NCBI GenBank assembly: GCA_031180805.1
Contig: JAPSLL010000023.1
Location: 1 to 62,835 of the forward strand
From: Bacillus sp. (in: firmicutes)
GTDB taxonomy: Bacteria > Bacillota > Bacilli > Bacillales > Bacillaceae
DNA length: 62,835 bases
Reading direction: 5' to 3'
The position numbers and the translations under genes were made by a program. Position 1 is the stretch's first letter. The number at the start of each line of letters is the position of its first letter. Below, in pieces: positions 22,894-53,446 of this stretch. The notes under the pieces were generated by a model. The model was not told the origin of the DNA. It saw only the letters and a program-made list of their open reading frames with translations, and made no database searches.

Positions 22894-22945
22894 ATAATAG
22901 CAATTAACCAACAATCCATATGGTATTTTGGTATCTTTTCTTGTA
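22894..22945 (-). promoter_or_regulatory. Shared activator-type promoter, copy a (mgsA)
   Basis: On the minus strand CAAAATACCATA (ending 22919) is preceded by an A-rich GAAAAG block and followed, 19 bases later, by the -10-like TATTAT (22899-22894). It lies about 90 bp before mgsA. Confidence 0.6.
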
Positions 22946-23109
22946 TAGTGGTTCATTCAAACAAAAAAATCTGTGACATTTCTATTTTTGCATTGTTAAC
23001 GAATTTGATATTAATCTATTGTTTGTAATACATAAATTTCCATCCTATCTAAATTTGTATGAAGATTTTTATTTCTAAAGTTTTTTTATTTACGAACTAA
23101 GGGATTTAC

Positions 23110-24528
23110 TTAATTCTGTTGTTGACTTTCCTTTCTACGTTCAGCAAGGTCTTTAGTAATCTGAACTTGCTTCTCTTCCGTTAAATCAAAGAAAGCAACA
23201 CATCCTGTTAAAGCAATAACAATTGATGGTAGTAATCCCATAAGTATTTTCAACCCATAAATTGTTTCACTACTCTGTTCAACCCCTGGTACATAGCCAA
23301 TAAACGCTAATCCCGTAGCTGCTACTGAACCAGCGAGAGCTGTAGCAATGGTCTGCATAAATCCTTTTAAAGAACCCATAAATGCATTAGCATTAATACC
23401 TGTTTTCCATTCTGTATAATCCATAGCAGCTGGAAGCATTGCTCCTTGAGCAGGACTTGCAAAGCCTAAAAATAAACTTGAAATAATACTAAAGGTTAAA
23501 AACATAATAATCCCAAAGGTTGAATTTGGAATGAACATAACGGAGACCATCGATAATACACTTATAAAGGCACATGAAAGAACATTAGCCTTAAGTCCAA
23601 ATCGTGCGGTTACCTTCGAGCTTAGCATCACTCCTATGATCGTTGGTATAAGACCCACAATTCCAAATAAAACAATGAGACTCTCAAAATTGAAATAGTA
23701 TTTGAAATAGTGAATCATAACTGCAGACCTTATGCCATTTGCTAAATTAATAGAGAAAACATAAATGTAGACGATAATTGCTGCTTTATTAGTAAAAACG
23801 GCGATAAGCAATTCTTTGAAAGAAGGATTATTAGTTTTTTTACTGCGTGTAACTACGTATCTTTCCTTTAATGTTGTGACTTGAAAGATTGATATAGATA
23901 CACATAATACAGCAATGAATCCCATGAGAATGGAGAAACCTCTTGAATCATCCCCTCCACCAAGTACTTTATACATTGGTTGAGTTACTGTTGAAATAAA
24001 AATTGCTGCTAACATCACGAGAAAATAGCTAATCTGCCCCATTGATATTCGCTCATCAATTCTTTTGGTAATTGCAGGACCAACCGCTGCTCCAGGTGCC
24101 TGCAAACATGCAATCAATATGCTATATATAATTAAAGTAACTGTAATATATATTAGCTTACCAACTGGACTTAGATTAAAATCCGTAAAGGTTAACCAAC
24201 CAAATACCCCAATAGGTACCCCTAATATTAAGTACCATGGAACATACTTTCCCCATGGTGTCGTAATTCTATCGACGATTATCCCAAATACTGGTGCAGA
24301 TATAGCACCAATAATTCTTGCCACTAAAATAAGTCCTGCCACATAAGTCAAACTAACTTCCAAAATATCTGTATAATAGAAAAGTAGAAAAACAGCAATC
24401 ATTTGGGAATGGATGGTCCCGTTAAACCCTGCTAAGGTAGCTGCTAGCTTCTCACGAAAGGTAAGTCTGCTATCCTCTTCAAATCTGTTATTAGCAGATT
24501 TAATTGGCATAATTTCTGTTTTTTCCAT
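23110..24528 (-). CDS. GPH-family sugar:cation symporter (MFS), first paralogue
   Basis: The 472-residue protein has about 12 transmembrane segments and the glycoside-pentoside-hexuronide (GPH) pattern: FLLFYYTDILEVSLTYVAGL, PVFGIIVDRITTPWGKYVPW and the central loop QVTTLKERYVV. GPH carriers such as MelB and XynP import oligosaccharides or glycosides with Na+ or H+. The start at 24528 follows AGGAG. It is a close paralogue of the transporter at 38342. A shared promoter copy lies 500 bp upstream, with mgsA downstream. It may import a glycoside whose substrate is cleaved inside the cell. Confidence 0.9.
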   Translation of the reverse strand: MEKTEIMPIKSANNRFEEDSRLTFREKLAATLAGFNGTIHSQMIAVFLLFYYTDILEVSLTYVAGLILVARIIGAISAPVFGIIVDRITTPWGKYVPWYLILGVPIGVFGWLTFTDFNLSPVGKLIYITVTLIIYSILIACLQAPGAAVGPAITKRIDERISMGQISYFLVMLAAIFISTVTQPMYKVLGGGDDSRGFSILMGFIAVLCVSISIFQVTTLKERYVVTRSKKTNNPSFKELLIAVFTNKAAIIVYIYVFSINLANGIRSAVMIHYFKYYFNFESLIVLFGIVGLIPTIIGVMLSSKVTARFGLKANVLSCAFISVLSMVSVMFIPNSTFGIIMFLTFSIISSLFLGFASPAQGAMLPAAMDYTEWKTGINANAFMGSLKGFMQTIATALAGSVAATGLAFIGYVPGVEQSSETIYGLKILMGLLPSIVIALTGCVAFFDLTEEKQVQITKDLAERRKESQQQN

Positions 24529-25686
24529 AATTATTCTCCTAAACATATAAATTTTAATATTTTCTCCACATTATCAAAGATACTCGCACTATTGTTTAAT
24601 AAATGAAAAAGCAAGTAAAATGTATCGTTTAAAAATTCTGTTTTTTGTAATCCGAAAATAATTACACCCTTTAGACTGGAATAACTCTTTCCAAAAATTG
24701 AAACTATTATGGTTACAAAGTCTCAATGGTTTTATTAAAATTTTTTTACAGAAGAGTACATAAAAAATTTTTGTTCCGCACTGGAACTTTGTCAAAAATA
24801 AAGAGGAATTTTATCAATTACATGTGTAACGCAACTGAAAAGTAGAGGGAATTGGGGGTGGATCTGACTTCTCATTAAAAGTCAGATCTGTTAGATATCA
24901 CTCAATAACAATGTAAGAGTTTTCAAATTACCTGAATATTTCCCTACACATTTTCACCAATAATTTTGATTAAATGAAAGAGAAGAGAAATATTTCTTTT
25001 CTTATATGATAAAGTACTTCTACTTATTAGTATGGTATTTTAGTTCCTTTTTTTGTGTAAAATACGTATTATTTTAATTAAACATTAACTTTAAACATCC
25101 TCACCTTTCATTCCATTAACGATGGACCACATACAACACTTTTTTCAACGTTTAAAAAATAGGAATCAACTTAACAAACTTCTTTCCTAATTCATTTTCT
25201 GTCTTAAAAAAATAAATAAGGATTCTAATGCCCATTGGTATATGAATATTTAAAACTAATATGTAAGACTTGCCCTTATCTCTTCAGTAATTCCTATTTC
25301 ATTTCAAAGTAACTTAGGCACCACTTTTTATACGAGAACTAATTCCCTACCTAAAACATGTTTCTACAAGTAGGAGCAAACAGTTTAGTTGAAGGGAACA
25401 ATTCCACATATCCGTAAGCTACCCCAGCTACCTCTATAACAGAGTCTATTAAAAAATAGTCAAAAGGAAAAACTGGATAACCTTATAATACGATGCTTCC
25501 TTTTTTTAGAATTAAGTTGAAATTTGAATTCCGCTTATATATTCGTCAAGATTCGTAAATTCATCACCTTATTCGAAAGGTTTACTTTTATTCTCATTTA
25601 TTCATCCCAACAAATGACAATCATTAGTAGATATCAACTAGACTCTTCTATTTTGGGAAGACAACAAAGACTACTAAAACAGCTTT
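24529..25686. other. Long intergenic stretch with eroded coding traces
   Basis: No intact gene is seen. A 10-bp hairpin without T-run lies at 24861-24888 (GATCTGACTT and complement). Shared promoter copy b lies at 25006-25057, unusually far from the transporter it would serve. On the minus strand 25465-25375 reads IDSVIEVAGVAYGYVELFPS, which looks like protein but is bounded by stops; I do not recognise it. Confidence 0.45.
25006..25057 (-). promoter_or_regulatory. Shared activator-type promoter, copy b (GPH transporter 1)
   Basis: Minus strand: ACAAAAAAAGGAACTAAAA (from 25055), then TACCATA ending at 25031, then 19 bases and the -10-like TATCAT (25011-25006). This is one of the best copies of the motif. 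Confidence 0.65.
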
Positions 25687-26670
25687 CTATTTAAATAGTT
25701 CTGGATAAAAACCTTTTGCTAATGTTTCAACTGTATAAGCCATTCTATTACCAGGTAAAACGCTTTCTAAAGATATAACTACGAAATTTTCTTTCTTTAC
25801 ACTTTCTAACTGTGAAAGAACCGGATCATTTTTAATATCATCAATTTTCTTTTCTAATGAAGGTGCATCATAATCGTGAATTACCAACACATCTGGCTGT
25901 CTTACTAAGACTTCTTCATAGCTTACCGTTGTCCATTGCTTGTCTGTAATTTCATCAAAAATATTAGTTCCACCGGCATACTCGATTAATAATGTTTCAA
26001 AATTTGTACCACTAGCTGTAAAAACACCTTCTCCACCGCTATCGTAAACTAATACATTTACTGGATCTTGAGTAGATATTTTTTCTTGTACAGCAGCAAT
26101 TCTTGTTTTTTGATTAGCAACAAATTTTTCCGCAACCTGTTCAATTTCAAATATTTTACCAATATCTAAGATTTCTTGATAGATTTGTTCTATTGTTGTG
26201 GCACGACTTATATAAGTGATTATTCCTAAACTTGATAACTCTTCAACATCTAAACCTTCTTCACCAAACTCCCAATCAATTCCATAAATAAAATCTGCAC
26301 CACTTGTAATTACTGCTTCTCTTGTAGCCGATCCGTATGTTAATTCTGGAATTTTCGCATAGTCTTCTTCATATTCGGGTAATGCTCCTCTACTATGATT
26401 ATCTAGACTATTACCAATAATATAATCACTAAGGCCTAATGCAATAAATAGTTCCGTTGTATTAGGTCCCAGTGTTAGGACCTTTTTTGGTTTATCTGTC
26501 ACCTTTACCTCTCTTCCATAGTTGTCAAATGTTAATTCTTCATATTCTGACAATGATTGAGCTTCTTCCTTAATAGCACTATTATTAGAAGATGAAGCTA
26601 TACTGCAACCAGATAATACTACCAAAAGCATTATTACACTAAATACAACTTTTTTTTCTTTATTCCCCAT
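25687..26670 (-). CDS. ABC importer substrate-binding lipoprotein (FecB/BtuF type)
   Basis: This 327-residue exported lipoprotein has a lipobox LSGC (about residues 19-22) after a hydrophobic signal and a periplasmic-binding-protein fold of the siderophore/cobalamin/metal-chelate class (KKVLTLGPNTTELFIALGL, ADFIYG, YEEVLVRQPDVLVI). It would capture a metal complex outside the cell for the permease and ATPase encoded just upstream. Its gene is third in the operon, 13 bases after the ATPase stop. The ligand cannot be told from sequence. The lar genes next door need nickel, so a nickel-chelate is a reasonable hypothesis beside iron-siderophore or cobalamin. Confidence 0.88.
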   Translation of the reverse strand: MGNKEKKVVFSVIMLLVVLSGCSIASSSNNSAIKEEAQSLSEYEELTFDNYGREVKVTDKPKKVLTLGPNTTELFIALGLSDYIIGNSLDNHSRGALPEYEEDYAKIPELTYGSATREAVITSGADFIYGIDWEFGEEGLDVEELSSLGIITYISRATTIEQIYQEILDIGKIFEIEQVAEKFVANQKTRIAAVQEKISTQDPVNVLVYDSGGEGVFTASGTNFETLLIEYAGGTNIFDEITDKQWTTVSYEEVLVRQPDVLVIHDYDAPSLEKKIDDIKNDPVLSQLESVKKENFVVISLESVLPGNRMAYTVETLAKGFYPELFK

Positions 26671-26683
26671 ATCTTTTACTCCT

Positions 26684-27457
26684 TTATAATTTTAAGCTGT
26701 TTGGTAAATATGTGATTGAAATTTTATTTGTGATAGGATGCACAATAACATCTGCTTTAATTCCGTAAACGTCAAAAATCAATTTTGACGTTAATATTTC
26801 CTCTGGATTACCTGTTTTATATATTCTTCCTTCTTTCAAAACATAAATTCGATCGCAATACAATGCAGCTATATTCAAATCATGTATGGCTGAAAGTACT
26901 GTTACTCCTAATCCCTTAACTAAATCAAATACTTGCAATTGAAAGTTTATATCTAAGTGATTTGTAGGTTCATCTAGTAATAAAAAATCTGTTTGTTGGG
27001 CTAACAAACGTGCAATTAACACTCGTTGTTTTTCTCCACCTGATAACGTCGAAAAATTCTGCTCCCCCTTTTCTACCATGTTAGTTTTCGTTAAGGCTTG
27101 AGCTACAATATCATGATCCAATTGTGTTTCTATTTCAAATAGCCTTTTGTGTGGACTGCGACCCATTGCAACAATTTCCTCCACTGTAAAATCAAATGAA
27201 ATTTCGTTTTCTTGTCCAAGGACACCTAGAATTGTTGCTACTTTTTTCACCTTCATTTTAAATAAATCTGCTCCATCTAACATGACAACACCTGAGTCTG
27301 GCTTCAGAGAAAGATATAAATTTTTTAATAAAGTCGATTTACCACTTCCATTAGGTCCAATTACTCCAATAAACTCACCTTTTGCTATATTGAGGCATAT
27401 ATCTTCAAGTATTTTTTTTCCATTATTTGAATAACTTAAATCAACTACTTGCATCAT
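26684..27457 (-). CDS. ABC importer ATPase (FecE/BtuD type)
   Basis: This 257-residue ATPase has Walker A GPNGSGKST (about residues 36-44), signature LSGGEKQRVLIARLLAQQ, Walker B FLLLDEPTNHLD and the switch His in SAIHDLN. It energises the FecCD-type permease encoded 16 bases upstream. The gene starts with ATG ATG behind GAGGTG. It is typical of the iron-siderophore, haem and cobalamin importer class and has no unusual residues. It belongs to the permease-ATPase-binding-protein operon that follows the larB-larC genes. Confidence 0.92.
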   Translation of the reverse strand: MMQVVDLSYSNNGKKILEDICLNIAKGEFIGVIGPNGSGKSTLLKNLYLSLKPDSGVVMLDGADLFKMKVKKVATILGVLGQENEISFDFTVEEIVAMGRSPHKRLFEIETQLDHDIVAQALTKTNMVEKGEQNFSTLSGGEKQRVLIARLLAQQTDFLLLDEPTNHLDINFQLQVFDLVKGLGVTVLSAIHDLNIAALYCDRIYVLKEGRIYKTGNPEEILTSKLIFDVYGIKADVIVHPITNKISITYLPNSLKL

Positions 27458-27473
27458 AATGTTTTCACCTCTT

Positions 27474-28565
27474 TTATCTGTTTGATTTTCTCTTTAACAT
27501 CCAAATAAAGAATGGTCCACCAATTAAAGCTGTTAAGATTCCAATTGGCAATTCTTCCGGTGCTATTATGATTCTTGCAACAACGTCTGTCCAAACTACT
27601 AATATTCCACCTAGCAAAGCACTAACAGGTAGAACTCTTTTATGGTCTGAACCAATCAATAATCTAGCCATATGTGGAACCATCAACCCAATAAACCCAA
27701 TAGAACCACTTACTGCTATCGTTACACCAGCTAAAAGTGAAGAAATCAATATAAGAATTTTTTGCGTACGTATCACGTTAATACCTAAAGATCCGGCAGT
27801 TTCATCTCCTATGAGCAATGCATTTAATGCACGATGATTGGTCATTAAGACTGTTAAACACAAAATAATAACAACAAGAGGAATTTTTAAATACCCCCAC
27901 TTAGCTCCCGCCAAACTTCCTGACATCCAAAAAGTAGCATTATGCAAACCAAGTGCATTTGGCGCACTTAAAGTGATAAAGCTCGTGATTGCCTCCATAA
28001 TCATTGCAATTGCAACACCTGTAAGTAATAGCTGGGTAATATTAATTCTACCTCTTACTCTTGAAATCGTATAAACAATACTAATAGTTATCAACGCACC
28101 AATAAATGCGCTGATAGAAAGTGCATAGGTTCCTAAAAAGGAAAAAACACCAAATAACATTCCTAATGTGGCAGTAGCAGAAGCTCCCGAAGAAACACCA
28201 AGAATAAATGGATCCGCCAATTGATTTCTTACCAAGGCTTGCATAGCAACACCAGTTACAGCTAAAGATGCACCAACTAACATCCCTAATAATACTCTTG
28301 GTATTCGCAAACCCCAGACAATATTTTCTTCCGTTTGAGTAAAATTGTAGGCTATACTATCTGTAAGAAATGGTAGTTTGCTAAAAATAATTTCTATAAC
28401 GCTAACTGGGTGAATAGAATATGGACCAATACCTATTGCTAAAATAATAGATACTATGCTTCCTAATATTAATAATATTGTTAAAGTATTGCCCTTCATC
28501 TTTGGATCATCCCTGAACAAGCTCTTGTGTACACTTGTAGATGTTTTGAGTTTTTCACCATACAT
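27474..28565 (-). CDS. ABC importer permease (FecCD family)
   Basis: The 363-residue membrane protein has about ten hydrophobic segments and FecCD family blocks: LRIPRVLLGMLVGASLAVTG, LADPFILGVSSGAS, SGSIGFIGLMVPHMAR and LPIGILTALIGGPFF. The family imports iron-siderophores, cobalamin and other metal chelates. About 30 polar residues precede the first membrane segment, a little longer than usual. The start at 28565 follows AAAGGG. It is the first gene of the importer operon and is separated from larC by a terminator hairpin at 28637-28676, so it probably has its own promoter. I found no cobalamin riboswitch in front of it. Confidence 0.92.
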   Translation of the reverse strand: MYGEKLKTSTSVHKSLFRDDPKMKGNTLTILLILGSIVSIILAIGIGPYSIHPVSVIEIIFSKLPFLTDSIAYNFTQTEENIVWGLRIPRVLLGMLVGASLAVTGVAMQALVRNQLADPFILGVSSGASATATLGMLFGVFSFLGTYALSISAFIGALITISIVYTISRVRGRINITQLLLTGVAIAMIMEAITSFITLSAPNALGLHNATFWMSGSLAGAKWGYLKIPLVVIILCLTVLMTNHRALNALLIGDETAGSLGINVIRTQKILILISSLLAGVTIAVSGSIGFIGLMVPHMARLLIGSDHKRVLPVSALLGGILVVWTDVVARIIIAPEELPIGILTALIGGPFFIWMLKRKSNR

Positions 28566-28730: not shown

Positions 28731-29204
28731 TCACTTCCGGTGTATTTGTTTCCAAACTTGTTCATAAACATTCTTTAAAGGAAGTTTATTGGTGTGCGCA
28801 ATGTATTTACACTCTTCAAACTCAGGGGCTCTTTGGATAACTTGTCCATTATATATCCCTTCTTTTACGGTAACTGGACCCCATTTTGTATGAACACGTC
28901 TAAACTTTCTTTCTGCCCTATGAACGGTTAAAGGATAATAACGAATTCCAAGTGTTGTTGTTTCTCTAAATAAAATCCCCCTTATAATTTCAAGTTTCTC
29001 ACGATTACATAAGAGCTGAAGTAATATCCCTGGTCTATTTTTTTTCATATAAATAGGCGTATAATAGACATCATTTGCACCATGTTCAAAAAGCAAATCC
29101 ATCACATACCCAAGCCATTCTCCAGAAATATCGTCAAGATTCACTTCCATTTTTATCATTTGATCATCGATATGTTCCTCACTTGGAGGAGGATGAGAAA
29201 TCAT
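28731..29204 (-). CDS. larC: LarC C-terminal part (LarC2), nickel insertion for the pincer cofactor
   Basis: This 157-residue protein equals the C-terminal half of LarC: MEVNLDDISGEWLGYVMD, then DVYYTPIYMKKNRPG, then FRETTTLGIRYYP. LarC inserts nickel into the pincer nucleotide made by LarB and LarE. The gene begins at an ATG with GAGAGGAG 6-7 bases before it, 21 bases after the larC1 stop and in the same reading frame. The two parts would form one chain if the TAG at 29226-29228 were read through. All expected C-terminal blocks are present, so the split falls in the natural linker. Separate translation as a two-subunit LarC is the simpler reading. Confidence 0.88.
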   Translation of the reverse strand: MISHPPPSEEHIDDQMIKMEVNLDDISGEWLGYVMDLLFEHGANDVYYTPIYMKKNRPGILLQLLCNREKLEIIRGILFRETTTLGIRYYPLTVHRAERKFRRVHTKWGPVTVKEGIYNGQVIQRAPEFEECKYIAHTNKLPLKNVYEQVWKQIHRK

Positions 29205-29225: not shown

Positions 29226-30026
29226 CTATTCACCTATAATTACTCTAAGTACATTTGGTCGATCTTTAAATGTTTTGGTGCCCGCTCCATATCCAATTGA
29301 TTTTACTTGCATTGATGGTAGCGTACAAAATTCCTCAACCAAGACGGCAAGTATAGCTGCTCCTGTTGGAGTCGTAAGTTCAAATCTAATATCACATTGT
29401 TTAATAGGTAAACCTTTTAATATTTCTAGCGTTGCTGGAGCTGGTACTGGATATATACCATGACTAATATGAATTCTCCCTGTTCCTACAGGAATTGCTG
29501 ATGATTTCACTTTTTTTATCTTTAATTGATGGATTAAAATAGCAGCTCCAACAATATCGATTATAGAATCAACGGCCCCAACTTCATGGAAATGAACCTT
29601 TTCCAAAGGTAAACCATGAATATGACCTTCCGCCTCGCCAATTTTTTTGAAAATATTTAATGCTGTTTGTTTTACTTCACTCGAAAATTCTGCAACCTCT
29701 ATTAAACTAACAATGTCTTTGTATGTTCTGTAATGATGGTGGTGGTCATGTCCATGATCGTGATCATGATGATGTTCCTGATCGTGATGGTTATGGTGTT
29801 CATGGTCATGATGATGATCGTTTTGTTTTTTTAACAGTACATCAAACTTAGTACACGCAATCCCGTTTTTCACTACTTTCTTCCATTGGAGTTCATATTC
29901 TTGCTCTATATTAAGTTTCAATAATTCTTTTTCAAGTAATATAGGATCTCCACCTATATCAAGCAGGGCACCAATTACCATATCACCGCTAATCCCAGAA
30001 AAACAATCGATATAAAGTGTACTCAT
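29226..30026 (-). CDS. larC: LarC N-terminal part (LarC1) with His-rich loop
   Basis: The 266-residue protein carries the LarC N-terminal signature YIDCFSGISGDMVIGALLD, KVHFHEVGAVDSIIDIVGA and YGAGTKTFKDRPNVLR. Residues 71-98 contain about 18 histidines mixed with Asp and Glu, a typical nickel-binding stretch. The stop is a TAG at the domain boundary, followed in the same frame by larC2. In Lactiplantibacillus plantarum the two halves are known to be joined by a programmed frameshift; here an in-frame stop takes that place. The ATG overlaps the larB stop by 4 bases, with AAGGAG inside larB. Confidence 0.92.
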   Translation of the reverse strand: MSTLYIDCFSGISGDMVIGALLDIGGDPILLEKELLKLNIEQEYELQWKKVVKNGIACTKFDVLLKKQNDHHHDHEHHNHHDQEHHHDHDHGHDHHHHYRTYKDIVSLIEVAEFSSEVKQTALNIFKKIGEAEGHIHGLPLEKVHFHEVGAVDSIIDIVGAAILIHQLKIKKVKSSAIPVGTGRIHISHGIYPVPAPATLEILKGLPIKQCDIRFELTTPTGAAILAVLVEEFCTLPSMQVKSIGYGAGTKTFKDRPNVLRVIIGE

Positions 30027-30778
30027 TTTTGTATTTCTCCTTTTTGAGCTAGTTGATCAATTAATACAGCGTTATACGCTGCTCCGAAACCATTATCAAT
30101 ATTCACAACACTAATGCCAGAAGAACATGAGTTTAGCATGGTTAATAAAGCCGATAATCCATTGAAATTCGCTCCATAACCAACACTTGTTGGAACTGCA
30201 AGGATTGGGTGATTCACAAGTCCCCCAACAACACTTGGGAGTGCCCCCTCCATTCCAGCTACAACAACTGAAACGGTAGCCTTTTGGATTTCTTCAATAT
30301 TATTTAATAGACGATGAATTCCCGCTACTCCTACATCATAAAAGCGCTTGACATTGCTACCTAAAGCTTCCGCAGTTAACGCAGCTTCTTCTGCAACTTT
30401 TAAATCTGATGTTCCTGCACAAACAATAGCAATATAGCTTTTAGATTTCTCAAATCCTGTTTTTTCTTTCCAAAATAGAATTTGTGCGACTTCATGATAT
30501 ACGAATTCAGAATAGGCATCTAAAATATAAGACGCTTTTTCTTTGGAAATCCGTGTAACTAGTACATTATTTTCCTTTGAGCGTAAAGCTTTAATAATAG
30601 CCAAGATTTGTTCTTTCGTTTTACCTTCTCCATAAACGACTTCTGGGAATCCTTGACGTTTCTTTCGATGGTGATCAACCATTGCAAATCCTAAATTTTC
30701 GTATGTTGAAAGCTTATCCTTAGCTTCGTCAATACTTAATGTTCCTGTTTGTACTTGCTTTAAAATGTCTTCAAGCAT
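30023..30778 (-). CDS. larB: LarB, nickel-pincer cofactor biosynthesis
   Basis: LarB carboxylates and hydrolyses nicotinic acid adenine dinucleotide to the dicarboxylated mononucleotide, the first step to the nickel-pincer cofactor. The 251-residue protein has a family N-terminus (FPEVVYGEGKTKEQI) and a C-terminal PurE-like domain (IVCAGTSDLKVAEEAALTAE, then GMEGALPSVVGGLV and PTSVGYGA). The ATG at 30778 follows GGAG by 8 bases; a GTG at 30787 is the alternative. It is the first gene of the larB-larC1-larC2 operon. The larE gene lies upstream in a separate transcript ended by the 31065-31089 hairpin. Confidence 0.93.
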   Translation of the reverse strand: MLEDILKQVQTGTLSIDEAKDKLSTYENLGFAMVDHHRKKRQGFPEVVYGEGKTKEQILAIIKALRSKENNVLVTRISKEKASYILDAYSEFVYHEVAQILFWKEKTGFEKSKSYIAIVCAGTSDLKVAEEAALTAEALGSNVKRFYDVGVAGIHRLLNNIEEIQKATVSVVVAGMEGALPSVVGGLVNHPILAVPTSVGYGANFNGLSALLTMLNSCSSGISVVNIDNGFGAAYNAVLIDQLAQKGEIQK

Positions 30779-31064
30779 TGTTTTCACTCCACTTCAGTCA
30801 CAAATACGTATATTTTTAAATGTTTCATGCCAGACTTTAGTTGTGTATGATTGGCATACTTATCGGGATATCAAAAATTCCTTCATAGCTTTAAGTTCCT
30901 TCAAACATAGTTGTGCGATTCCAGCATTGTAAATTGGGCCCACAGATTATTGAATATCCAACTAGTATATCCTTTAGGTTGTTTTGCAAATTGTCGGATT
31001 GTCCACTCGTTTCCGTAGTAGTACCCACTTTACGAGTAAACTTTTTTCTCTCTTTCTATTGAAA
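30779..31064. other. larB upstream region
   Basis: No gene. An inverted repeat ATGCCA (30827-30832) and TGGCAT (30852-30857) lies 50-80 bases before larB and could be an operator. Nothing else is evident. Confidence 0.35.
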
Positions 31065-31089
31065 AGGCCTTGGATTAACTCCAAAGCCT
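31065..31089 (-). terminator. Terminator of the larA-like/SDR/larE operon
   Basis: Arms AGGCCTTGGA and TCCAAAGCCT form a stem with one mismatch immediately after the larE stop, followed on the minus strand by a short T-run. Confidence 0.65.
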
Positions 31090-31095
31090 GTTTTA

Positions 31096-31896
31096 TTATG
31101 ACAAAACTTTATTCATACTACCGCTCTTATATCCAATTAAATCTAGAGTAATATATTTGTATCCGTATCTCGTTAAATTACTTACAATCTTTGTATGGTT
31201 TTCAAGTACAACTTTCATATCATAGGGTTCTACTTCAATTCGTGCCATATTTTGATGAGTTCGAACTCGAACTTGACGAATATTTAGTGTTTTTAAATAA
31301 GCTTCTGCTTTCTCTACTTTAGTAAGCTTCTCAATCGTAATTTTTTCCCCGTAAGCGATTCTAGATGAAAGACAAGCAAAAGAAGGCTTATTCCATGTTG
31401 GTAAATCAAGTTGTTTTGATAACTCCCTTATTTCGGCTTTAAATAAGTTCGCCTCCAGTAATGGACCGCGAATTCCATTTTCTTTAGCTGCTTTCATTCC
31501 AGGACGAAACTCATTTAAATCATCAGCTATAACACCATAAATTATATTTTGAAGCCCTTCTTTTTCCGTAACAGGGATTAAATGTTCAAATAAGCTATTT
31601 TTACAAAAATAACAACGATTTCGATTGTTTTCTATATATCCTGGAATCGCAAGTTCTGACGTTTCAATGACTCTATGCTTTGCCCCGATTATTTCTGCTA
31701 ATTCTTTCGCCTCCTTAAGCTCGCTTGAAGGATACGTCTCAGAATCTGCTGTAACTGCTAAGACACGTTCTGATCCAAGTGTATCAACGGCTACTTTTAA
31801 CAAAAAGGTACTATCAACTCCACCTGAAAATGCAACAACAACAGAATTCATCTCTCGGAGAATTGACTTTAGGCTAAGAAGCTTTTCATTCATCAT
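31096..31896 (-). CDS. larE: LarE, ATP-dependent sacrificial sulfur transferase
   Basis: LarE adds sulfur atoms to the LarB product during nickel-pincer cofactor synthesis. The 266-residue protein has the PP-loop SGGVDST (about residues 24-30), the CYFCK block, and PSFACLSSRIAYG with Cys175. That cysteine corresponds to the sacrificial Cys176 of the Lactiplantibacillus enzyme, which loses its own sulfur. CYFCK (Cys95, Cys98) is common in the family. Two ATG codons follow AAGGAGG; either may start. It is third in an operon with the LarA-like protein and a dehydrogenase (gaps of 42-48 bases). Confidence 0.93.
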   Translation of the reverse strand: MMNEKLLSLKSILREMNSVVVAFSGGVDSTFLLKVAVDTLGSERVLAVTADSETYPSSELKEAKELAEIIGAKHRVIETSELAIPGYIENNRNRCYFCKNSLFEHLIPVTEKEGLQNIIYGVIADDLNEFRPGMKAAKENGIRGPLLEANLFKAEIRELSKQLDLPTWNKPSFACLSSRIAYGEKITIEKLTKVEKAEAYLKTLNIRQVRVRTHQNMARIEVEPYDMKVVLENHTKIVSNLTRYGYKYITLDLIGYKSGSMNKVLS

Positions 31897-40020: not shown

Positions 40021-40160
40021 CATACTCAAGTTTGTTAATTTTTTCTTCATTATATAAATTAGGTTGTGTTACATAAATGAACCTTCGATTTGTTTACATA
40101 TTTATTTAAAAAGTAACTCCATCTCAATAGTGAATTAATTGGAAATTTACTTTTTAAAAT

Positions 40161-44776: not shown

Positions 44777-46315
44777 TTAACTAAGCCTATCGACAACCTC
44801 ATCCTCAAGATTTGATAAATCATTTTCTTTACGACGAATATCTAAATCAGCTTGGATTTCTTCCATACGTTCTTTCGTCAATGGGTAAAACTTCATTGCT
44901 ATTAATGACGCAATCCAAGCAAACATTAGTATTCCATAATCTAAAAACATAGTAGCCCAAAAAATGTTATTAGAATATGGGGTATTAATATCTGGAAAAG
45001 CAGCTTTAAATCCTATAAATGAAAGTGTAAGACCTACGATTGTTTGTGAGAAAGATGAAACCATTTTATCAATAAATGAATAAGTAGCAGAAATGGTACC
45101 CGGTACAAACTTACCACTCTTATGTGTTTCGTAATCAGTAATATCTGGTAACATTGGCTGAACTAGTCCAGTAGATATCATACGAGCTCCTCCACCTAGT
45201 AGATGCAAAGTAATAAATGCGATCGTCATAAAGCCGATGTTATTAAGGTCAATTTGTGTTGGATCCCCCAACCAAAGTAGGAAAAACCAACTTGTATAAA
45301 TCACTATACACGCCCATGTTGCTGCTACATATGCTTGTTTCGTTCCAAACTTTTTAGCATAACGCATTCCGATCAATAAGAGTAAAATATTAGGGACAAG
45401 TGCAATAGTCTGCATTGTTCCAAACATCCCATAATTTCCAATAATAATACCGAATAATAATATTGGGACGACTTGATTTCCTGCAGCTTGCATACTTAGT
45501 TTATCCGTTGTTGCTGCTAAAATAAACACTTGCAGTGGCCGATTTCCCTTTAAAACTTTCCACATATTCTTTATAGAAACTTTATGTTGCTTATTAGCTC
45601 CAACTCCAAAATTCTCTATACGATCTGATTCACGAATAGCTATAAAGGAAATCACATAGAAAATACCAGCAATAATAATGGTTGTTATCGTCAATTCATG
45701 AAAAAACGTTTCATTGTTATAACCACCGTGTTTTGGTGCTAAATATTTTGAAAGGTACACTGAAGCAAGAGCAAAATATACAGAATTATAAATAGCTTCC
45801 GTTCCACCTAAAACCGGTCTTTGTTCAGGGTCTGTTGTAATAATTGTTTTTCCAATAGGTCCAACAATTGAAGAGATGGTATACCCTATAATATAAATAC
45901 AATATACTGCGATAAAGTAAATTAATCTCATTCCTTCTGGAACTTTATGGGTTGTGAAGAACAAGATAAGGACTGCTGCAGACATTATTAAATACGCCAT
46001 AATGATTAATGGTCTAACTTTACCATGCTTTCCTTCTGTCTTGTCTGCGATAACCGCAACAATTGGATCGGTAATTCCATCGAATATTCTAGTACCTGTA
46101 AGTACCATTGATGCAACGACAGTACCAAGACCTACAATCCCTGCTGCATAGAAGGATACTAACATCATTAAAAACATAAATGCATTATGAGCTGTTCCTA
46201 TGGTTGGAAATAACAGAATTTGCCATTTTTTTGCTCGACGGAATTTTTTCTCACGCTCAGCTATCTCTAAGGCCCTTTGCTCTTTTTTTATTTGCCTTGA
46301 TGTTTTATCTTTCAC
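44777..46315 (-). CDS. MFS/GPH-family sugar transporter, third of the window
   Basis: The 512-residue protein has about 12 transmembrane segments, a charged N-terminal 30 residues and a charged C-terminal tail. GPH-like features include TRIFDGITDPIVAVIADKTEGKHGKVRPL and PDITDYETHKSGKFVPGTIS. It is clearly more distant from the two other GPH carriers than they are from each other. The start is a GTG at 46315 behind GAGGAGG. A cre site lies 87-100 bp upstream and a shared promoter copy about 460 bp upstream. It probably takes up a glycoside for the GH43-GH2-GH1 enzymes encoded upstream. Confidence 0.88.
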   Translation of the reverse strand: MKDKTSRQIKKEQRALEIAEREKKFRRAKKWQILLFPTIGTAHNAFMFLMMLVSFYAAGIVGLGTVVASMVLTGTRIFDGITDPIVAVIADKTEGKHGKVRPLIIMAYLIMSAAVLILFFTTHKVPEGMRLIYFIAVYCIYIIGYTISSIVGPIGKTIITTDPEQRPVLGGTEAIYNSVYFALASVYLSKYLAPKHGGYNNETFFHELTITTIIIAGIFYVISFIAIRESDRIENFGVGANKQHKVSIKNMWKVLKGNRPLQVFILAATTDKLSMQAAGNQVVPILLFGIIIGNYGMFGTMQTIALVPNILLLLIGMRYAKKFGTKQAYVAATWACIVIYTSWFFLLWLGDPTQIDLNNIGFMTIAFITLHLLGGGARMISTGLVQPMLPDITDYETHKSGKFVPGTISATYSFIDKMVSSFSQTIVGLTLSFIGFKAAFPDINTPYSNNIFWATMFLDYGILMFAWIASLIAMKFYPLTKERMEEIQADLDIRRKENDLSNLEDEVVDRLS

Positions 46316-46769: not shown

Positions 46770-46822
46770 AAAATAAGATAATTCAAACGAATGGTATTGT
46801 ATTTTGGTTCTTTTTTTGTAAC
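46770..46822 (-). promoter_or_regulatory. Shared activator-type promoter, copy f (third transporter)
   Basis: Minus strand: TTACAAAAAAAGAACCAAAA followed by TACAATA ending at 46795, then 19 bases and TATTTT (46775-46770). One base of the TACCATA core and the -10 differ, so it is a weaker copy about 460 bp before the gene. Confidence 0.5.
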
Positions 46823-46884
46823 AACAATAGATATTACTACACTTTTTTATCACATTCTTAGTACATAATGACTATATGAAATAA

Positions 46885-47786: not shown

Positions 47787-49061
47787 TCATGACCTGCTTA
47801 TACTCCCCAAAAACTTCAAGCTATCTTTTGGGTATCTAATTTGTGTTGAACGATCTACAGCAATTAATCCAAATGTTTGCTCATACCCCAATTGCCATTC
47901 AAAATTATCAAGTAAAGACCAATACATATATCCAATTACTTGTATTCCGCATTCGACACATTGATGAACACCATTCAATGCCCTTTCAATAAATTCGATC
48001 CTTTCCTCATCGTTGTCTGTGGATATGCCGTTTTCTGTCACAATCATCGGCTTCTGCCAATGTTTTGCAACAAAGCGTAGAACGTTTCCTAATGCTTCAG
48101 GATAATACTCATACCCCATTTTTGTTAACCTAGTATCTTCATCGGGTTTCAAAACGCCATTTGGTCCATGAATCTTTCGTGAATAGTTTTGAACGCCCAA
48201 GAAATCATCTTCTTGTAGATAAGGAAGATAGAGTAAAAAATCTTCATATTGCTCTTTTTTTACATACACTTCACCTCCAGGTATTGACTGGTGATCATAA
48301 AGGGATAAAGTAATTCCTACTTTAATATTTGGATTCACTTCTTTAATCACTTTTCTCGCTTTTTCATGACATTTCATGATAATGAGCTCACCATTTTCAG
48401 ATCGAGGAGATAAAAATGTTTGTACACTACTTGGAGCAACCCCAAAAGCTTCACCTAAGGAGCGATAATAGGTTTCCATTTTACTTTTCATGTCTACATT
48501 AAGACCAACCTGTACATCTCCATTTTTAGCATCTACACCAGTTTCTGTCATTCTTTTCATGATTTTAGAAATTTGTTTCCCCATATTTGCTTCATTTATT
48601 GTGCAAATATATGGGATAAGTCCCCCCAGTTCAGAAACAACATGTTGACAGTATCGGACAAAATAATTAATTGTTTTTTCACTTTCCCACCCACCTTCAC
48701 TTATTAGCCATTTAGGTGATGAAAAATGATGTAATGTCACAATAGGTGTGATGTCGTTTCGATGACAAAATTCTAGAACCTCTCTATAGTGTTCAACCTC
48801 TCTAGGGTCAAAATTACCTTTTGTTGGCTCTATTCGTGCCCATTCGATCGAAAATCTATATGAATTACATCCGGCATCTATCAATAATTGAATATCTTCT
48901 TTATATCTATTATAATGATCTACCGCATCTAAAGATGGTTCCTTATACATGGATCCTTGTACATTCTCCATCGTCCAAAAATCACTGTTCACATTATTTC
49001 CTTCTACTTGATGAGCAGCAGTTGCAGCACCAATCATAAAATGCCTGTTGAACTTCTTCAT
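47787..49061 (-). CDS. Glycoside hydrolase family 1 (beta-glucosidase-type)
   Basis: The 424-residue TIM-barrel enzyme has the GH1 acid/base Glu157 in CTINEANM (NEAN instead of the usual NEP) and the nucleophile Glu343 in IVTENGIS. It begins FMIGAATAAHQVEGNN, as GH1 enzymes do, and lacks a signal peptide. The ATG at 49061 stands 6 bases after GAGGAGG; a TTG at 49076 overlaps that site and is rejected. It is the last gene of the GH43-GH2-GH1 operon, 23 bases after GH2. No phosphate-binding signature typical of 6-phospho-beta-glucosidases was recognised, in line with symporter uptake rather than a PTS. Confidence 0.9.
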   Translation of the reverse strand: MKKFNRHFMIGAATAAHQVEGNNVNSDFWTMENVQGSMYKEPSLDAVDHYNRYKEDIQLLIDAGCNSYRFSIEWARIEPTKGNFDPREVEHYREVLEFCHRNDITPIVTLHHFSSPKWLISEGGWESEKTINYFVRYCQHVVSELGGLIPYICTINEANMGKQISKIMKRMTETGVDAKNGDVQVGLNVDMKSKMETYYRSLGEAFGVAPSSVQTFLSPRSENGELIIMKCHEKARKVIKEVNPNIKVGITLSLYDHQSIPGGEVYVKKEQYEDFLLYLPYLQEDDFLGVQNYSRKIHGPNGVLKPDEDTRLTKMGYEYYPEALGNVLRFVAKHWQKPMIVTENGISTDNDEERIEFIERALNGVHQCVECGIQVIGYMYWSLLDNFEWQLGYEQTFGLIAVDRSTQIRYPKDSLKFLGSISRS

Positions 49062-49084
49062 CTTTCTCCTCCTCAAACTTCTTA

Positions 49085-51739
49085 TTAACCCAATTCTTTG
49101 ATTTCTTTTTCGATTGTACCGAGTAATTTCTTTGGAATCATTGATTCAGGGGCAAATTGGATCACTTGGTTGAAACTAATTTTTTGGGCTCTTTCTATCA
49201 ATGGACTATTCACAAATTCAGGTTGATGTTTTTCTAAGATTTCCTTTGTTTTAGGATTTTCGATTAATTCTCCTACACTCATTTCAAAACTATAAATGGT
49301 TTCTTCCATAACTATTTCCTTGTAATCTAGATCACGTTGCTCACATTGAATAGTTATCTCCCGACTAATTAAATCTTTTGATGATACCTTAAGTGTAAAA
49401 GCGCCACTTTGACCAGTGCTCTTAACTATAGCAAGGGCATTCCCTTTATATAATTTCCGTTCCTTACTTATAAATAACTCTGTCGATAATGGGTCAGCAC
49501 TTCCGAGAGCTATCAATTCTCCTTCACCGTATACTTCAACATGAATTTTATCATTAGCAAAAGCCACTAGATTCCCATTCTTATCGATTGCAGAAATCGA
49601 AATATAACATAAATCTCCATAATTTGCGCTAATAATTTTACGGTCTTCCTTTAGATAAATAGCAGCCGGAAAGTTGGTTGTTTCAAGTCGATCTCTTCCT
49701 GTTTCGATACCTGCTTTATATGCAACTACTTCCAGTGTTCCAGGCTCATAATCAATATCAAAGCTAGTCATATATTTCGTATTCCATCCTGCCTCTTTTT
49801 TCCCTAGACTAATACCATTTATGAACAGCTCTACTTCATCCGCATCAGAATAAATATCTACTCGAGTTTTCTGTCCTTCATATCCGTGAAAAGTATAATT
49901 TCGTTCAACTGGTTCCCATCCCCATGGTTTAAAATGAATGTTTTCTCCATATAAGTTTGGAGGTAGTACTACCATATATGGTGTGTCTCGATTCCCCCAA
50001 ATGATATCTCTGTAGTATGACTGTGGACGTTTTTCTCCACAAATATCGATATCTCCACAATTTGCATAAAACCAAGGAAATTGACCTCCTGCAGCCATGT
50101 TCATTTCACCAATGCTTACTCTTCCAAGGCCTGCCTCTCCCAAATAATCGATTGCAGTCCAGACAAAATCTCCAATTACATTAGGATTATTTAATGTTTC
50201 AGTCCAGTTTTCAAATAAATTTTGAGGATATGTTTCAGAGCCATAGATAACTCGATTCGGAAATCTTTTTGCATCATATTTATAACGCTTTACTTTATAG
50301 TTATAACCAGCAGCATCTAATGGTTCAAAATATTTTTCAGTTACTTCTCCCCATATGTCATTTTCAGGGTCAACATTGTTTCCTAACATATTTAAAATGA
50401 CGTTCCCATCAACAACTGTTGTCATACTTGCATATTCTGACATAAGGGAGCAAGCTGATGCCGTAACTGCCCTACTAGAATCTAATTCTCTAACTTTATC
50501 AGCAAGACGTTTACTCCAAAAATATCCATTTGAGGAACCATCTCTTTCCTCTACTTCATTTCCTATCGACCACATAATAATTGATGGATGATTAAAATCT
50601 CGTTTCACCAATGCTTCTATATCTTCTTCCCAATATTTCTCAAAGAAGAGATTATAATCAAAGCTTCTTCTTCCTGCTACCCAGGCATCAAAAGCTTCAT
50701 CAATGACTAGCATACCTAATCTGTCACAAGCATCTAAGAAAGCCGGTGCATGTGGATTATGAGCTAATCTCACTGCATTAAAACCAGATGCTTTTAATAA
50801 CTCTACTTTTCTCTCCTCAGCTCGATCATAACTTGCACTGCCGAGTGGCCCGTTATCATGATGAATGCATCCACCTTTTAACTTCATAGATTTTCCGTTA
50901 AGTTTAAAGCCTTCTTTAGCATCAAAAGAAACTTCTCGGATACCTGTTGAAACAGATGCTGTATCCTTAATGATTTCATCTAACACAATGCTAGCTTGAA
51001 TATGATATAAATAAGGATTTTCAATATCCCAATAGTTGAATTGTTTTAATGCTAGTTTAGATTTAACCTTATGTTTCGTATATGCAGCTATGTGGAAGTC
51101 TTTCTCGTCTGTTAGAAGAAGTTTCTTATCTTGATTAAAAATTTGAAGTTTTAGTTTACCTTTTACCGGATTAGATTCACTATTTGTTATGGTTGTATTT
51201 GTCTCTAAATTTACTACATTACCTTCAATTGATTTTGTTTCTATTTGTAAGTCCCAAGGCTTAATATGGACTTTTTCACCTACATGCAGCCATACATGTC
51301 GATAAATTCCTGTTCCCGCATACCACCTAGAGCTTGGTTTTTGTGTATTTTCCACATGAACGAGAATGACATTTTTCTCTCCTATTTTCACATTTTTTGT
51401 GATATCAACAAGAAAACTTGTGTATCCATTAACATGCTTTGCAACAACGCTTCCATTCAAATAGACATTCGAAATCCCCATTACACCTTCAAATTCCAAA
51501 ACAAGACTTTTATTCTGCCATTCATTCTTAACTATTAAATCTTTTTTATAATAAACACTAACTCCTGAAGTAAATCCTTCTTCATAGCCTGAAGGATTAT
51601 CTTCCTTCCTCTCTTTTTCTATTGCTATATCATGGGGAATATTAACTATTTTCCAATCATGACTCATTTGTAATAGCATGGAGTTTGCCATCGTACTCTC
51701 TAAATAGCTCCAATTTCTATCTAATAAGAATTTATCCAT
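49085..51739 (-). CDS. Glycoside hydrolase family 2 (beta-galactosidase-like) with C-terminal extra domains
   Basis: This 884-residue enzyme has the GH2 sugar-binding domain (IPHDIAIE, SRWYAGTGIYRHVWL), TIM barrel with acid/base Glu395 in WSIGNEVEE and nucleophile Glu501 in IYGSETYP. Then come a DUF4982-like/Ig-like part (about residues 590-800) and a helical tail (from about 815, YSFEMSVGELIENPKTKEIL). The same kind of tail ends the GH2 enzyme at 35018. It is intracellular, starts at 51739 behind AGAGGAA, and lies 20 bases after GH43. The substrate may be a beta-galactoside or another beta-linked sugar on xylo-oligosaccharides. Confidence 0.9.
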   Translation of the reverse strand: MDKFLLDRNWSYLESTMANSMLLQMSHDWKIVNIPHDIAIEKERKEDNPSGYEEGFTSGVSVYYKKDLIVKNEWQNKSLVLEFEGVMGISNVYLNGSVVAKHVNGYTSFLVDITKNVKIGEKNVILVHVENTQKPSSRWYAGTGIYRHVWLHVGEKVHIKPWDLQIETKSIEGNVVNLETNTTITNSESNPVKGKLKLQIFNQDKKLLLTDEKDFHIAAYTKHKVKSKLALKQFNYWDIENPYLYHIQASIVLDEIIKDTASVSTGIREVSFDAKEGFKLNGKSMKLKGGCIHHDNGPLGSASYDRAEERKVELLKASGFNAVRLAHNPHAPAFLDACDRLGMLVIDEAFDAWVAGRRSFDYNLFFEKYWEEDIEALVKRDFNHPSIIMWSIGNEVEERDGSSNGYFWSKRLADKVRELDSSRAVTASACSLMSEYASMTTVVDGNVILNMLGNNVDPENDIWGEVTEKYFEPLDAAGYNYKVKRYKYDAKRFPNRVIYGSETYPQNLFENWTETLNNPNVIGDFVWTAIDYLGEAGLGRVSIGEMNMAAGGQFPWFYANCGDIDICGEKRPQSYYRDIIWGNRDTPYMVVLPPNLYGENIHFKPWGWEPVERNYTFHGYEGQKTRVDIYSDADEVELFINGISLGKKEAGWNTKYMTSFDIDYEPGTLEVVAYKAGIETGRDRLETTNFPAAIYLKEDRKIISANYGDLCYISISAIDKNGNLVAFANDKIHVEVYGEGELIALGSADPLSTELFISKERKLYKGNALAIVKSTGQSGAFTLKVSSKDLISREITIQCEQRDLDYKEIVMEETIYSFEMSVGELIENPKTKEILEKHQPEFVNSPLIERAQKISFNQVIQFAPESMIPKKLLGTIEKEIKELG

Positions 51740-51759: not shown

Positions 51760-53289
51760 TTAATATGTACGATAATCAAAATAATCAAAGTATGCAGGTG
51801 TAGTAGATTTCTTACCATTTCCAGTTGCATACATCGCGAGATATAATCCCGTAAATCCTCCTGCAACTTGTGTAGATAAAAATGATGTTTCCCCGCTACC
51901 AATAATATTAGGTTCGCTATTTGGAGTTGAGTAGGTAAAGGTGAAGCTAGTGTCAGTAGCCTTAATCCCTAATATGACACTTGAGGACTCATACTCCATT
52001 TCAACTTCCACCGTCTTAAGACTTCCTACTACCTGACGGAAAATAAGATAGGGTTTACCTAGTTTACATGTTTTAGCAATGAGATAATGATAATTTTCAT
52101 TCATAAATACTGTTAATCCTGCTTCCTCACCATCTGACATTGGGGTAAATTCCATTAAAGTGGTTACTTCACAGTTGAAATGTTGTTGTCTACGTCCAAC
52201 AAATGCTGGTGAATCCGCACTATTTAACGTGCAAGCCTGACCATATAATGTTAAAAATCCTGGTTCCTTAGTCAATGACCAAGAATCCATTGATGGATTT
52301 CGATAAAAATTCCAAACAGGTGAAAGAGTTTCACTATTAAAATCTTCTCTTTCAAACGAATGTATAGTCATCCCTTTTAGGAGGAGAGTAGACTCATTCT
52401 CTACTTCGGCTGTACCATTGTTCCCGATAATTGGCCAACCTTCCTTCGACCATATAACTGGAGCTAGGTTTGTTTCACGGCCCAAATGATGTAGTTTAGT
52501 GCTTTTTACAGGTCGTATTCCTAAAAATACTGACCACCATGAACCATCTTCTGCTTGAATTAATTCAGCATGGCCAGTTGCTTGAATAGGCTTGTTACTA
52601 CTACGATTTGAAAGAATAGGATTATTCGGATTGCTTTCAAAGGGACCATACGGACTTTTGCTTCTTGCTATCGTTACCATGTGCCCATATTCAGTCCCTC
52701 CTTCAGCAATCATCAAGTAATACCAATCATTTATTTTATAAAGGTGAGGACCTTCAGGAGAACAACCACCCGTTCCTTCCCAAATTAGTCGAGTTTCATT
52801 TATGAGCCTTCCCGATTTTATATCAATTTCAGCTTGAATGATCCCTTCAGAGCCTACACCTGGAAAACTCGCGGCCGTCAAATATACTTTCCCATCATCA
52901 AATAGTAAAGATGGATCATACCCTCTCAATCCATCTATATAGATTGGTTCAGACCATGGACCATGTGGATTATCTGCCCAAACATAGAAGCTTTTTCTTA
53001 TTGTTATATTCGTTGTGATGACATAAAACCTTCCATTATGAAACCTAATTGTAGGGGCAAAAATCCCCTGTGAAGGGATAAATGAATTCTGGCGTGAAAG
53101 AGGCAACTGACTCTCACGTGTTAATACATGACCCATTTGTTTCCAATTAACTAAATCTGCACTATGAAATATGGGTATACCTGGAAAATACTCAAAAGAG
53201 CTTGTAACCAAGTAAAAATCCTTTCCAACTTTACAAATACTAGGATCTGGATGAAATCCACTAATTACTGGATTGGTATACTTCACCAT
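51760..53289 (-). CDS. Glycoside hydrolase family 43 beta-xylosidase (XynB-like)
   Basis: The 509-residue enzyme has a five-bladed propeller with catalytic Asp15 (GFHPDPS), pKa-modulating Asp125 (GYDPSL) and Glu179 (CSPEGPHLY), and a C-terminal concanavalin-like domain (from about residue 320). This is the layout of GH43 subfamily 11 beta-xylosidases, which release xylose or arabinose from short xylo-oligosaccharides. No signal peptide. The ATG at 53289 follows AGAAAGGAAA; an in-frame leader upstream to 53364 covers promoter DNA. It is the first gene of the operon, downstream of shared promoter copy g. Confidence 0.93.
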   Translation of the reverse strand: MVKYTNPVISGFHPDPSICKVGKDFYLVTSSFEYFPGIPIFHSADLVNWKQMGHVLTRESQLPLSRQNSFIPSQGIFAPTIRFHNGRFYVITTNITIRKSFYVWADNPHGPWSEPIYIDGLRGYDPSLLFDDGKVYLTAASFPGVGSEGIIQAEIDIKSGRLINETRLIWEGTGGCSPEGPHLYKINDWYYLMIAEGGTEYGHMVTIARSKSPYGPFESNPNNPILSNRSSNKPIQATGHAELIQAEDGSWWSVFLGIRPVKSTKLHHLGRETNLAPVIWSKEGWPIIGNNGTAEVENESTLLLKGMTIHSFEREDFNSETLSPVWNFYRNPSMDSWSLTKEPGFLTLYGQACTLNSADSPAFVGRRQQHFNCEVTTLMEFTPMSDGEEAGLTVFMNENYHYLIAKTCKLGKPYLIFRQVVGSLKTVEVEMEYESSSVILGIKATDTSFTFTYSTPNSEPNIIGSGETSFLSTQVAGGFTGLYLAMYATGNGKKSTTPAYFDYFDYRTY

Positions 53290-53393
53290 AAACAATTTCC
53301 TTTCTTTTCTTAATATTGATTTATAAATAAAAATATAACTGTTTCTAACATTAGAAAAACGCAATCATACCAAATTTATCCGCTTACATAAAT

Positions 53394-53446
53394 ATGATAC
53401 CATTCAAAACAAAAACATTATGGTACTGTAGTTCCCTTTTTGGTAA
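53394..53446 (-). promoter_or_regulatory. Shared activator-type promoter, copy g (GH43-GH2-GH1 operon)
   Basis: Minus strand: ACCAAAAAGGGAACTACAG, then TACCATA ending at 53419, then 19 bases and the -10-like TATCAT (53399-53394). It lies in the divergent gap, 105-157 bp before GH43, and the AraC gene runs the other way. Confidence 0.65.

Follow-up and report, generated by a model that had tools for sequence, protein, structure and literature searches.

A conserved activator-type promoter and its candidate AraC-type regulator in a glycoside-utilization cluster of Bacillus sp.

The window studied here comprises positions 1–62,835 of contig JAPSLL010000023.1 from Bacillus sp. (assembly GCA_031180805.1; genome of 4.58 Mb). 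It contains seven copies of a promoter element, all on the minus strand, which lie ahead of glycosidase and sugar transporter genes, a lar operon encoding a nickel-pincer isomerase, and two mgsA (methylglyoxal synthase) loci. Most probably, with a likelihood that we put at roughly 85%, these sequences represent one class of activator-dependent promoter, and the AraC-type protein encoded at 53496–54746, hereafter AraC2, is the activator. Judged from sequence comparison, the system is a real, local, and conserved AraC-type regulon. The initial annotation had proposed a regulon that joins glycoside use to the lar and mgsA genes. The single promoter class and the AraC-type regulator are borne out, but the links to lar and mgsA are narrow: a box was seen ahead of a lar operon in one other lineage only (Halalkalibacter urbisdiaboli) and ahead of mgsA in one other genome only (G020). 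No description of this regulon was found in the open-licence literature, including the available parts of PMC10766802 and PMC3542313, and none of the open-licence articles combining TACCATA with "AraC family" concerns Bacillales by its title.

Seven promoter copies and their architecture

Two models were used to search for the element. R1 is a sequence-only covariance model of 33 positions built from the seven copies, and R2 is a second model of 58 positions that includes the −10 and was built from 33 hand-picked sites (6 from the window and 27 from relatives). All seven copies were located where they had first been reported. Four lie ahead of transporter or glycosidase genes with a −10 at the usual distance or one base further: 25006–25061 (−10 TATCAT, spacing 19, about 460 nt ahead of GPH1; 31.0 bits by R2), 39966–40021 (TATGAT, spacing 20, ahead of GPH2; 30.6 bits), 46770–46826 (TATTTT, spacing 19, about 450 nt ahead of GPH3; 28.5 bits), and 53394–53449 (extended −10 TGgTATCAT, spacing 19, ahead of GH43-GH2b-GH1 and divergent from the AraC2 gene; 38.4 bits). 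The copy at 22894–22949 precedes the second mgsA (extended −10 TGcTATTAT, spacing 19; 40.8 bits), that at 34303–34358 stands about 270 nt ahead of the larA operon (extended −10 TGgTATGAT, spacing 19; 36.1 bits), and that at 37729–37784 is followed by a degenerate mgsA and GH2a (weak −10 TGaTAACTT, spacing 19; 35.6 bits).

Twelve of the 33 columns are invariant in an ungapped alignment of the seven copies. A 32-bp weight matrix derived from them returns 30.6–41.4 bits for the copies themselves, and its best score elsewhere in the window, on both strands, is 9.6 bits. When each copy is left out of the matrix in turn, it still scores 18.7–35.9 bits and always ranks seventh or better in the window. 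The seven copies are real and lie far above chance. Their common orientation, which had been correctly noted, is weak evidence on its own because the neighboring genes are nearly all on the minus strand. Two copies, at 22894 and 53394, fall within extensions of open reading frames (ORFs). These extensions vanish with starts at 22802 for mgsA and at 53496 for AraC2, the latter a TTG preceded by AAAGGAG, and all seven copies are then outside the listed ORFs of at least 80 aa.

The −10 hexamer follows TACCATA at a distance of 19 bp in six of the seven copies and of 20 bp in the copy at 39966. Among the six with 19 bp, five contain TAnnnT with at least four of six matches to TATAAT. A geometry of 19–20 bp had been described and stands, with two details corrected: the copy at 46770 reads TACAATA, and the −10 of the copy at 37729 is poor (TAACTT, three of six matches), although the preceding TG is retained. 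The sequence also supports the proposal that TTGACA is absent and that an activator site overlaps the −35 position.

The same architecture is found in relatives. Sites in 17 loci of AraC2-bearing relatives were chosen by the upstream block alone, with 15 bits as the lower limit, and all 35 that qualified were examined; this uniform recount added L093:2921 and L127:16978, both with the −10 at 19 bp, to 33 hand-picked relatives' sites. The near-copies of G005 (G019, i.e., L098, and L128) and L132, which is on the same contig as G090, were left out. In 31 of the 35 sites, a TAnnnT with at least four matches to TATAAT stands exactly 19 bp after TACCATA, and in two it stands 20 bp after it; the remaining 13 offsets together hold 15 such matches. 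A G is present two bases ahead of the hexamer in 25 of the 35 sites, and a T precedes this position in 23 of 33, which yields an extended −10, TGnTATnAT. Upstream, AC steps recur at −19/−18, −7/−6, and +1/+2, and 20 bp separate the TAC at −20 from that at 0 (33 sites), an arrangement that may reflect two tandem AraC-type half-sites. Overlap of a site with the −35 position, combined with constant spacing to the −10, is the sequence geometry of class II activation.

Strong sites are confined to the window. R1 gives seven strong matches in the 4.58-Mb genome, at 20.9–27.2 bits, and the next match has 13.6 bits (E = 0.39); R2 gives the same seven at 28.5–40.8 bits, followed by 13.5 bits (E of about 0.4). 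No eighth strong copy was found by either model; each scored the 150 top-ranking of several thousand first-look candidates, so weak sites may have been missed. The genome scan that the initial annotation had suggested thus finds the strong sites not scattered but gathered in this cluster, and the regulon is local in this genome; a genome-wide regulon is rejected here. The bare pattern TACCATA-N19-TATNAT has seven matches in the genome, four of them within the window, vs. 1 + 1 for a reversed control. It is too weak alone, and the A-rich block is needed.

AraC2 and its proposed sites across Bacillales

AraC2 (53496–54746, plus strand) is a protein of 416 aa with a C-terminal pair of helix-turn-helix (HTH) domains (HTH_18/HTH_AraC). 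The match of 77.3 bits in this region, against a cut-off of 33.6, places it in the AraC/XylS family. Escherichia coli AraC at araI, RhaS, and MelR are class II activators of this family. AraC2 resembles them in its HTH_18 domain, in the end of its presumed site over the −35 position, and in a gene that diverges from the first target operon. It differs in its N-terminal half, which shows no cupin and no other Pfam match, unlike those of the E. coli proteins. Furthermore, no N-terminal receiver domain as in YesN-type proteins was detected, only HTH domains being found at E ≤ 0.001. A predicted model (28 sequences; mean pLDDT 79.4, pTM 0.44) matches AraC-type DNA-binding domains, and the predicted fold also has a weak match to the GAF domain of CodY (E of about 4e-3, root-mean-square deviation of about 15). 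Residues 16–405 align to nearly the full TIGR04094 model (YSIRK-targeted surface antigen transcriptional regulator) at 162.5 bits. However, this is under the curated cut-off of 200 bits, and the neighbors of AraC2 are glycosidases and transporters.

In the proposed mechanism, AraC2, perhaps in response to an inducer, would bind a site of about 31 bp with a consensus of about ATATTACnAAAAAAARWACYAAAWTACCATA, whose TACCATA end would overlap the place of the −35. It would then recruit RNA polymerase to the extended −10, TGnTATnAT, held 19 bp downstream, by class II AraC activation. The site would act from the divergent region between AraC2 and the first target operon and, repeated, ahead of neighboring operons. 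The predicted core targets are the glycosidases GH1, GH43, and the β-glucuronidase-like GH2, together with sugar transporters; in this genome, the same box would also drive the nickel-pincer isomerase operon, for a mannonate-to-gluconate step, and the second mgsA.

The initial annotation had left the choice among three AraC-type proteins. Comparison with other genomes singles out the one at 53496 and disfavors that at 40295 as a general regulator. Among 120 relatives, the window genome included, R1 reaches E ≤ 0.005 in five (G000, G005, G019, G020, and G090) and lies between 0.0059 and 0.1 in 23 more; exactly these five carry AraC2 at 60% identity or above. G008 has an AraC2 match of 51% and no R1 match at E ≤ 0.1. 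A scan of contigs for AraC2 relatives gave 80 loci, 39 of which were scanned with the matrix of the seven copies, the others being lower or partial matches. A site of at least 15 bits diverges from the AraC2 gene in 10 of the 12 loci with a best-segment identity of at least 46%: Bacillus sp. MRMR6, Bacillus sp. J37, B. sinesaloumensis, Salipaludibacillus neizhouensis, H. urbisdiaboli, Litchfieldia salsa, H. hemicellulosilyticus, Paenibacillus sp. JJ-223, Shouchella clausii, and P. maysiensis. Such an adjoining site is found in none of the 27 loci under 46% identity; one of these, L154, matches at 16.7 bits in another part of its locus. The two surveys share four genomes: G008 (Metabacillus niabensis), G019 (Bacillus sp. 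J37), G090 (L. salsa), and G426 (H. urbisdiaboli).

In 397 genomes of the order, R2 reaches E ≤ 1e-4 in seven (G000, G090, G374, G392, G426, G444, and G121) and E ≤ 1e-6 in six (all of these except G121). Sites from G000 and G090 and one from G426 had been used for training, and G374, G392, and G444 are new. G374, G392, G426, and G444 all encode AraC2 at 53–63% identity, with a site just upstream. AraC2 was sought in 27 of the 29 genomes with R2 at E ≤ 0.01 (all except G000 and G090). The 22 genomes with R2 E-values from 4.6e-4 to 0.01 include seven with an AraC2 match at E ≤ 1e-30, none of them full-length above 40%; in G230, a match of 45% covers the C-terminal 159 residues only. When 15 further genomes were searched with R2, strong sites were obtained in G005 and G020; among the remaining 13, G008 came out best (E = 0.0026). 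Wherever the AraC2 region of a motif-bearing genome is seen, a strong site lies next to AraC2. The genes behind the sites are non-homologous (GH1, GH43, GH2, GH3, GPH, mgsA, gnd, and ABC pairs), which means that the copies are not explained by the inheritance of a single promoter.

Several points weigh against assigning the sites to AraC2. B. timonensis has no site; its gene is split over two frames, with 52% identity in the C-terminal part and 28% in the other. M. niabensis has none either; its contig stops at the gene, and its best R2 match in the genome is that noted for G008. In G121, R2 finds a single site (25.7 bits, E = 6e-5), yet nothing there matches AraC2 at E ≤ 1e-30. Finally, many of the genomes are related, so that the co-occurrence counts are not independent, and R2 was trained on some of the genomes that it later found. 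The G121 site is at G121:C1:1077279-1077325 (in L287), where a weight-matrix scan gives nothing above 16 bits.

Several observations concern the spread of AraC2 and its box. G374 has two AraC2 copies (62–63%), each with a divergent box (L273:15371 and L275:12640). G090 has a strong box (34.8 bits by R2) on another contig (G090:C24, L284:8821), ahead of an SDR gene; the regulon may thus extend beyond a single locus in some genomes. A weak R2 match in G024 (C19:54306-54344, 15.5 bits, E = 0.11) is situated 53 bp away from an AraC paralogue of 38% identity, a hint that such paralogues may use diverged versions of the box.

Candidate target genes and the group 22 lar operon

The operon divergent from AraC2 (minus strand, like the other window genes given with coordinates in this section) encodes GH43 (51760–53289; nearest solved β-xylosidase 5z5d, 637 bits), GH2b (49085–51739; nearest solved GH2 7rsk, 570 bits), and GH1 (47787–49076; 250 bits to TIGR03356 BGL, cut-off 478; nearest solved 4r27, 370 bits). 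Three MFS_2 sugar transporters follow boxes of their own, GPH3 (44777–46315), GPH2 (38342–39751), and GPH1 (23110–24546), and GPH2 is 57% identical to GPH1. An inverted repeat, GATCTGACTT/AAGTCAGATC, was spotted by eye at 24861–24888 within the leader of GPH1. GH2a (35018–37240) is β-glucuronidase-like: its nearest solved relative, 7kgz, scores 938 bits over 737 of 740 residues, and entries named β-galactosidase rank next at 824 bits. The window also encodes a GH3 whose nearest solved relative is the β-xylosidase 7zb3 (605 bits), with no box ahead of it by the matrix of the seven copies. Across genomes, boxes precede genes for GH1, GH43, GH2, GH3, and GPH transporters, and some genomes also have ABC exporter-like genes behind them. 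By these comparisons, the glycosidase–transporter core is conserved across several Bacillales genera.

The boxes at L097:785 (with L096:16978-18000), L130:4282, and L273:14395 lead to pairs of ABC_tran genes, and ABC_membrane is present at L130 and L273. SDR genes, GH106-like rhamnosidases, and MFS/TetR pairs recur in AraC2 clusters. One may speculate that the substrates are plant glycosides with toxic aglycones and not plain xylo-oligosaccharides.

The second mgsA (22338–22802) is accompanied by a degenerate mgsA remnant with several stops (37334–37671), and the other mgsA of the genome, on contig C103, has 70% identity. G020 also has a second mgsA (77%), with a 26.2-bit box directly upstream, and the AraC2-bearing genomes G005, G019, and G090 have one mgsA each. 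In the AraC2 cluster of G374, mgsA relatives of 76% (L278:17123-17581) and 68% (L274:8422-8835) are present. Our guess is that the second mgsA would relieve triose-phosphate overflow.

The lar operon starts with a larA homologue (32758–34029), followed by an SDR gene (31945–32715; best match D-mannonate oxidoreductase at 270 bits, under the cut-off of 281), larE (31096–31896; TIGR00268, 360 bits), larB (30023–30787), larC1 (29226–30026), and larC2 (28731–29204); larE and the last three all score above their NCBIfam cut-offs. Downstream of larC is a FecCD/BtuC-type ABC importer (permease, ATPase, and binding protein; 25687–28565). The first gene had been called LarA. It belongs to the nickel-pincer superfamily, and larB, larC1, larC2, and larE adjoin it, as would suit the lactate racemase LarA. 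Yet it is assigned to nickel-pincer isomerase group 22 (NF052515, 562 bits, cut-off 400), and lactate racemase identity is rejected (NF033504, 21.5 bits vs. a cut-off of 460); unlike that of lactate racemase, the operon context of its homologues in relatives is glucuronate. No solved relative was found by sequence at E ≤ 0.001.

In G003, G005, G020, and G090, the gene order is uxaC-larA-SDR-larE-FGGY kinase-larB-larC1-larC2. The kinase of G005 is nearest to gluconokinase (498 bits, below the cut-off of 649), and a ROK regulator diverges from this operon. In the window, the operon lacks uxaC and the kinase; uxaC is retained on contig C114, and at the place of the relatives' kinase there is a gap (30788–31095) with two tiny, non-significant kinase matches (E of about 4–6). 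Since relatives keep larA in operons with uxaC, a mannonate-reductase-like gene, and an FGGY kinase, the homologue is predicted to be a mannonate–gluconate epimerase. We infer that the operon reads glucuronate, fructuronate, mannonate, gluconate, 6-phosphogluconate, and ribulose 5-phosphate.

A comparable uronate route in Thermotoga uses GntE, a gluconate 2-epimerase of another LarA group, according to the available parts of PMC7583248 and PMC6978723. As there, genes for a uronate isomerase, a mannonate-forming reductase-like protein, a LarA homologue, and a gluconokinase-like protein stand together. Whereas GntE activity is reported from groups 19 and 20, the homologue here is in NCBIfam group 22, the NCBI numbering being presumed equal to that of the paper. 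The accessible text of the GntE work (PMC7583248 and PMC6978723) gives no activity for group 22, and this term is absent from the main texts, as far as available, of PMC7583248, PMC11770544, PMC12611868, and PMC11796402.

Whether the lar and mgsA boxes are functional is a separate matter from the promoter class itself. Shuffling of the cluster might have put these genes behind existing boxes, which would make their membership in the regulon incidental. The patchy distribution speaks for this: a box precedes the lar operon in two of the seven AraC2-bearing larA genomes (G000, G005, G019, G020, G090, G374, and G426; 1.5 kb upstream scanned in G019), the window operon lacks uxaC and the kinase gene, and one mgsA copy is degenerate. 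Around the lar operons of G003, G005, G020, G090, and G115 no box was found, the best score being 13.4 bits in a terminator-like stretch; that of G374 lies inside the AraC2 cluster and has no box of its own above 16 bits. When 1.5 kb upstream of 21 larA loci was scanned, the sole strong site was that of the window; the next scores were 14.0 bits, at L123 ahead of a 54% paralogue in G011, and 6.4. On the other side, the larA box of the window is strong, and its spacing and −10 are perfect. H. urbisdiaboli has a box (43.6 bits by weight matrix and 32.0 by R2) ahead of the 6-phosphogluconate dehydrogenase gene (gnd), and gnd-uxaC-larA-SDR-larE-kinase-larB-larC follows on one strand, the uxaC frame being interrupted in the assembly. 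In addition, mgsA is preceded by a separate box in G000 as well as in G020, and GH2a, behind another box, could supply the glucuronate. An incidental placement is unlikely, though it keeps a real share of the probability.

A broader interpretation is put forward tentatively, at somewhat less than even odds. One AraC lineage with an unrecognized sensor domain may run a compact, gene-swapping plant-glycoside regulon across Bacillales by means of a rigid extended −10 module. This module would have come to stand before a nickel-dependent glucuronate route, with group 22 as a new mannonate–gluconate epimerase, and before a dedicated second mgsA. If so, β-glucuronide hydrolysis, entry of glucuronate into the pentose phosphate pathway, and triose-phosphate overflow would be switched on together. 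For one regulon, a DNA site is now defined and a regulator and member genes are named, and the function of group 22 becomes directly testable.

Other candidate regulators and the early leader

The assignment to AraC2 has to be weighed against the two other AraC-type proteins of the cluster, both with AraC-type HTH domains. AraC1 (40295–41008, minus strand) is a short protein whose gene diverges from GH3, and its relatives (62–66%) are also beside GH3 in the clusters of G090, G374, and H. urbisdiaboli. The protein at 57301–59823, AraC-GH39, combines a cupin, an AraC-type DNA-binding domain, and GH39. However, AraC1 occurs at E ≤ 1e-30 in 2 of the 120 relatives (G000 and G090) and was not found in G005, G019, and G020, which have strong motifs (the G020 assembly being 89% complete). 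On this account it is rejected as a general regulator. Moreover, the strong site is the one beside AraC2, and G090 and G426 have a weaker site, or none, on the AraC1 side. Activation by either of the two proteins is quite improbable. A 64% relative of AraC-GH39 is present near the lar operon of H. urbisdiaboli (L280:5579-8095).

Slimmer still is the chance that the element serves as a repressor operator or belongs to a shared RNA leader: the copies do share sequence and some leaders are long (about 270–490 nt from the −10 to the start codon), but the block stops 19 bp before an extended −10 with no −35, which is activation geometry, and after the −10 the information falls to at most 0.25 bits per column (33 relatives' sites), so that nothing is conserved in the early leader. 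A structured RNA leader is rejected for this lack of conservation and for the absence of any Rfam match in the window at gathering thresholds.

Just downstream of the −10, three of the seven copies have a cre-like sequence on the minus strand, at 34284–34298 (13 of 15 matches), 39947–39961 (13 of 15), and 53375–53389 (14 of 15), but 67 positions of the window, on both strands, reach at least 13, so that these matches are no more than suggestive. The CcpA cre consensus WTGNAANCGNWWNCA was used for this comparison. CcpA may repress some of the seven promoters at such sites near +1.

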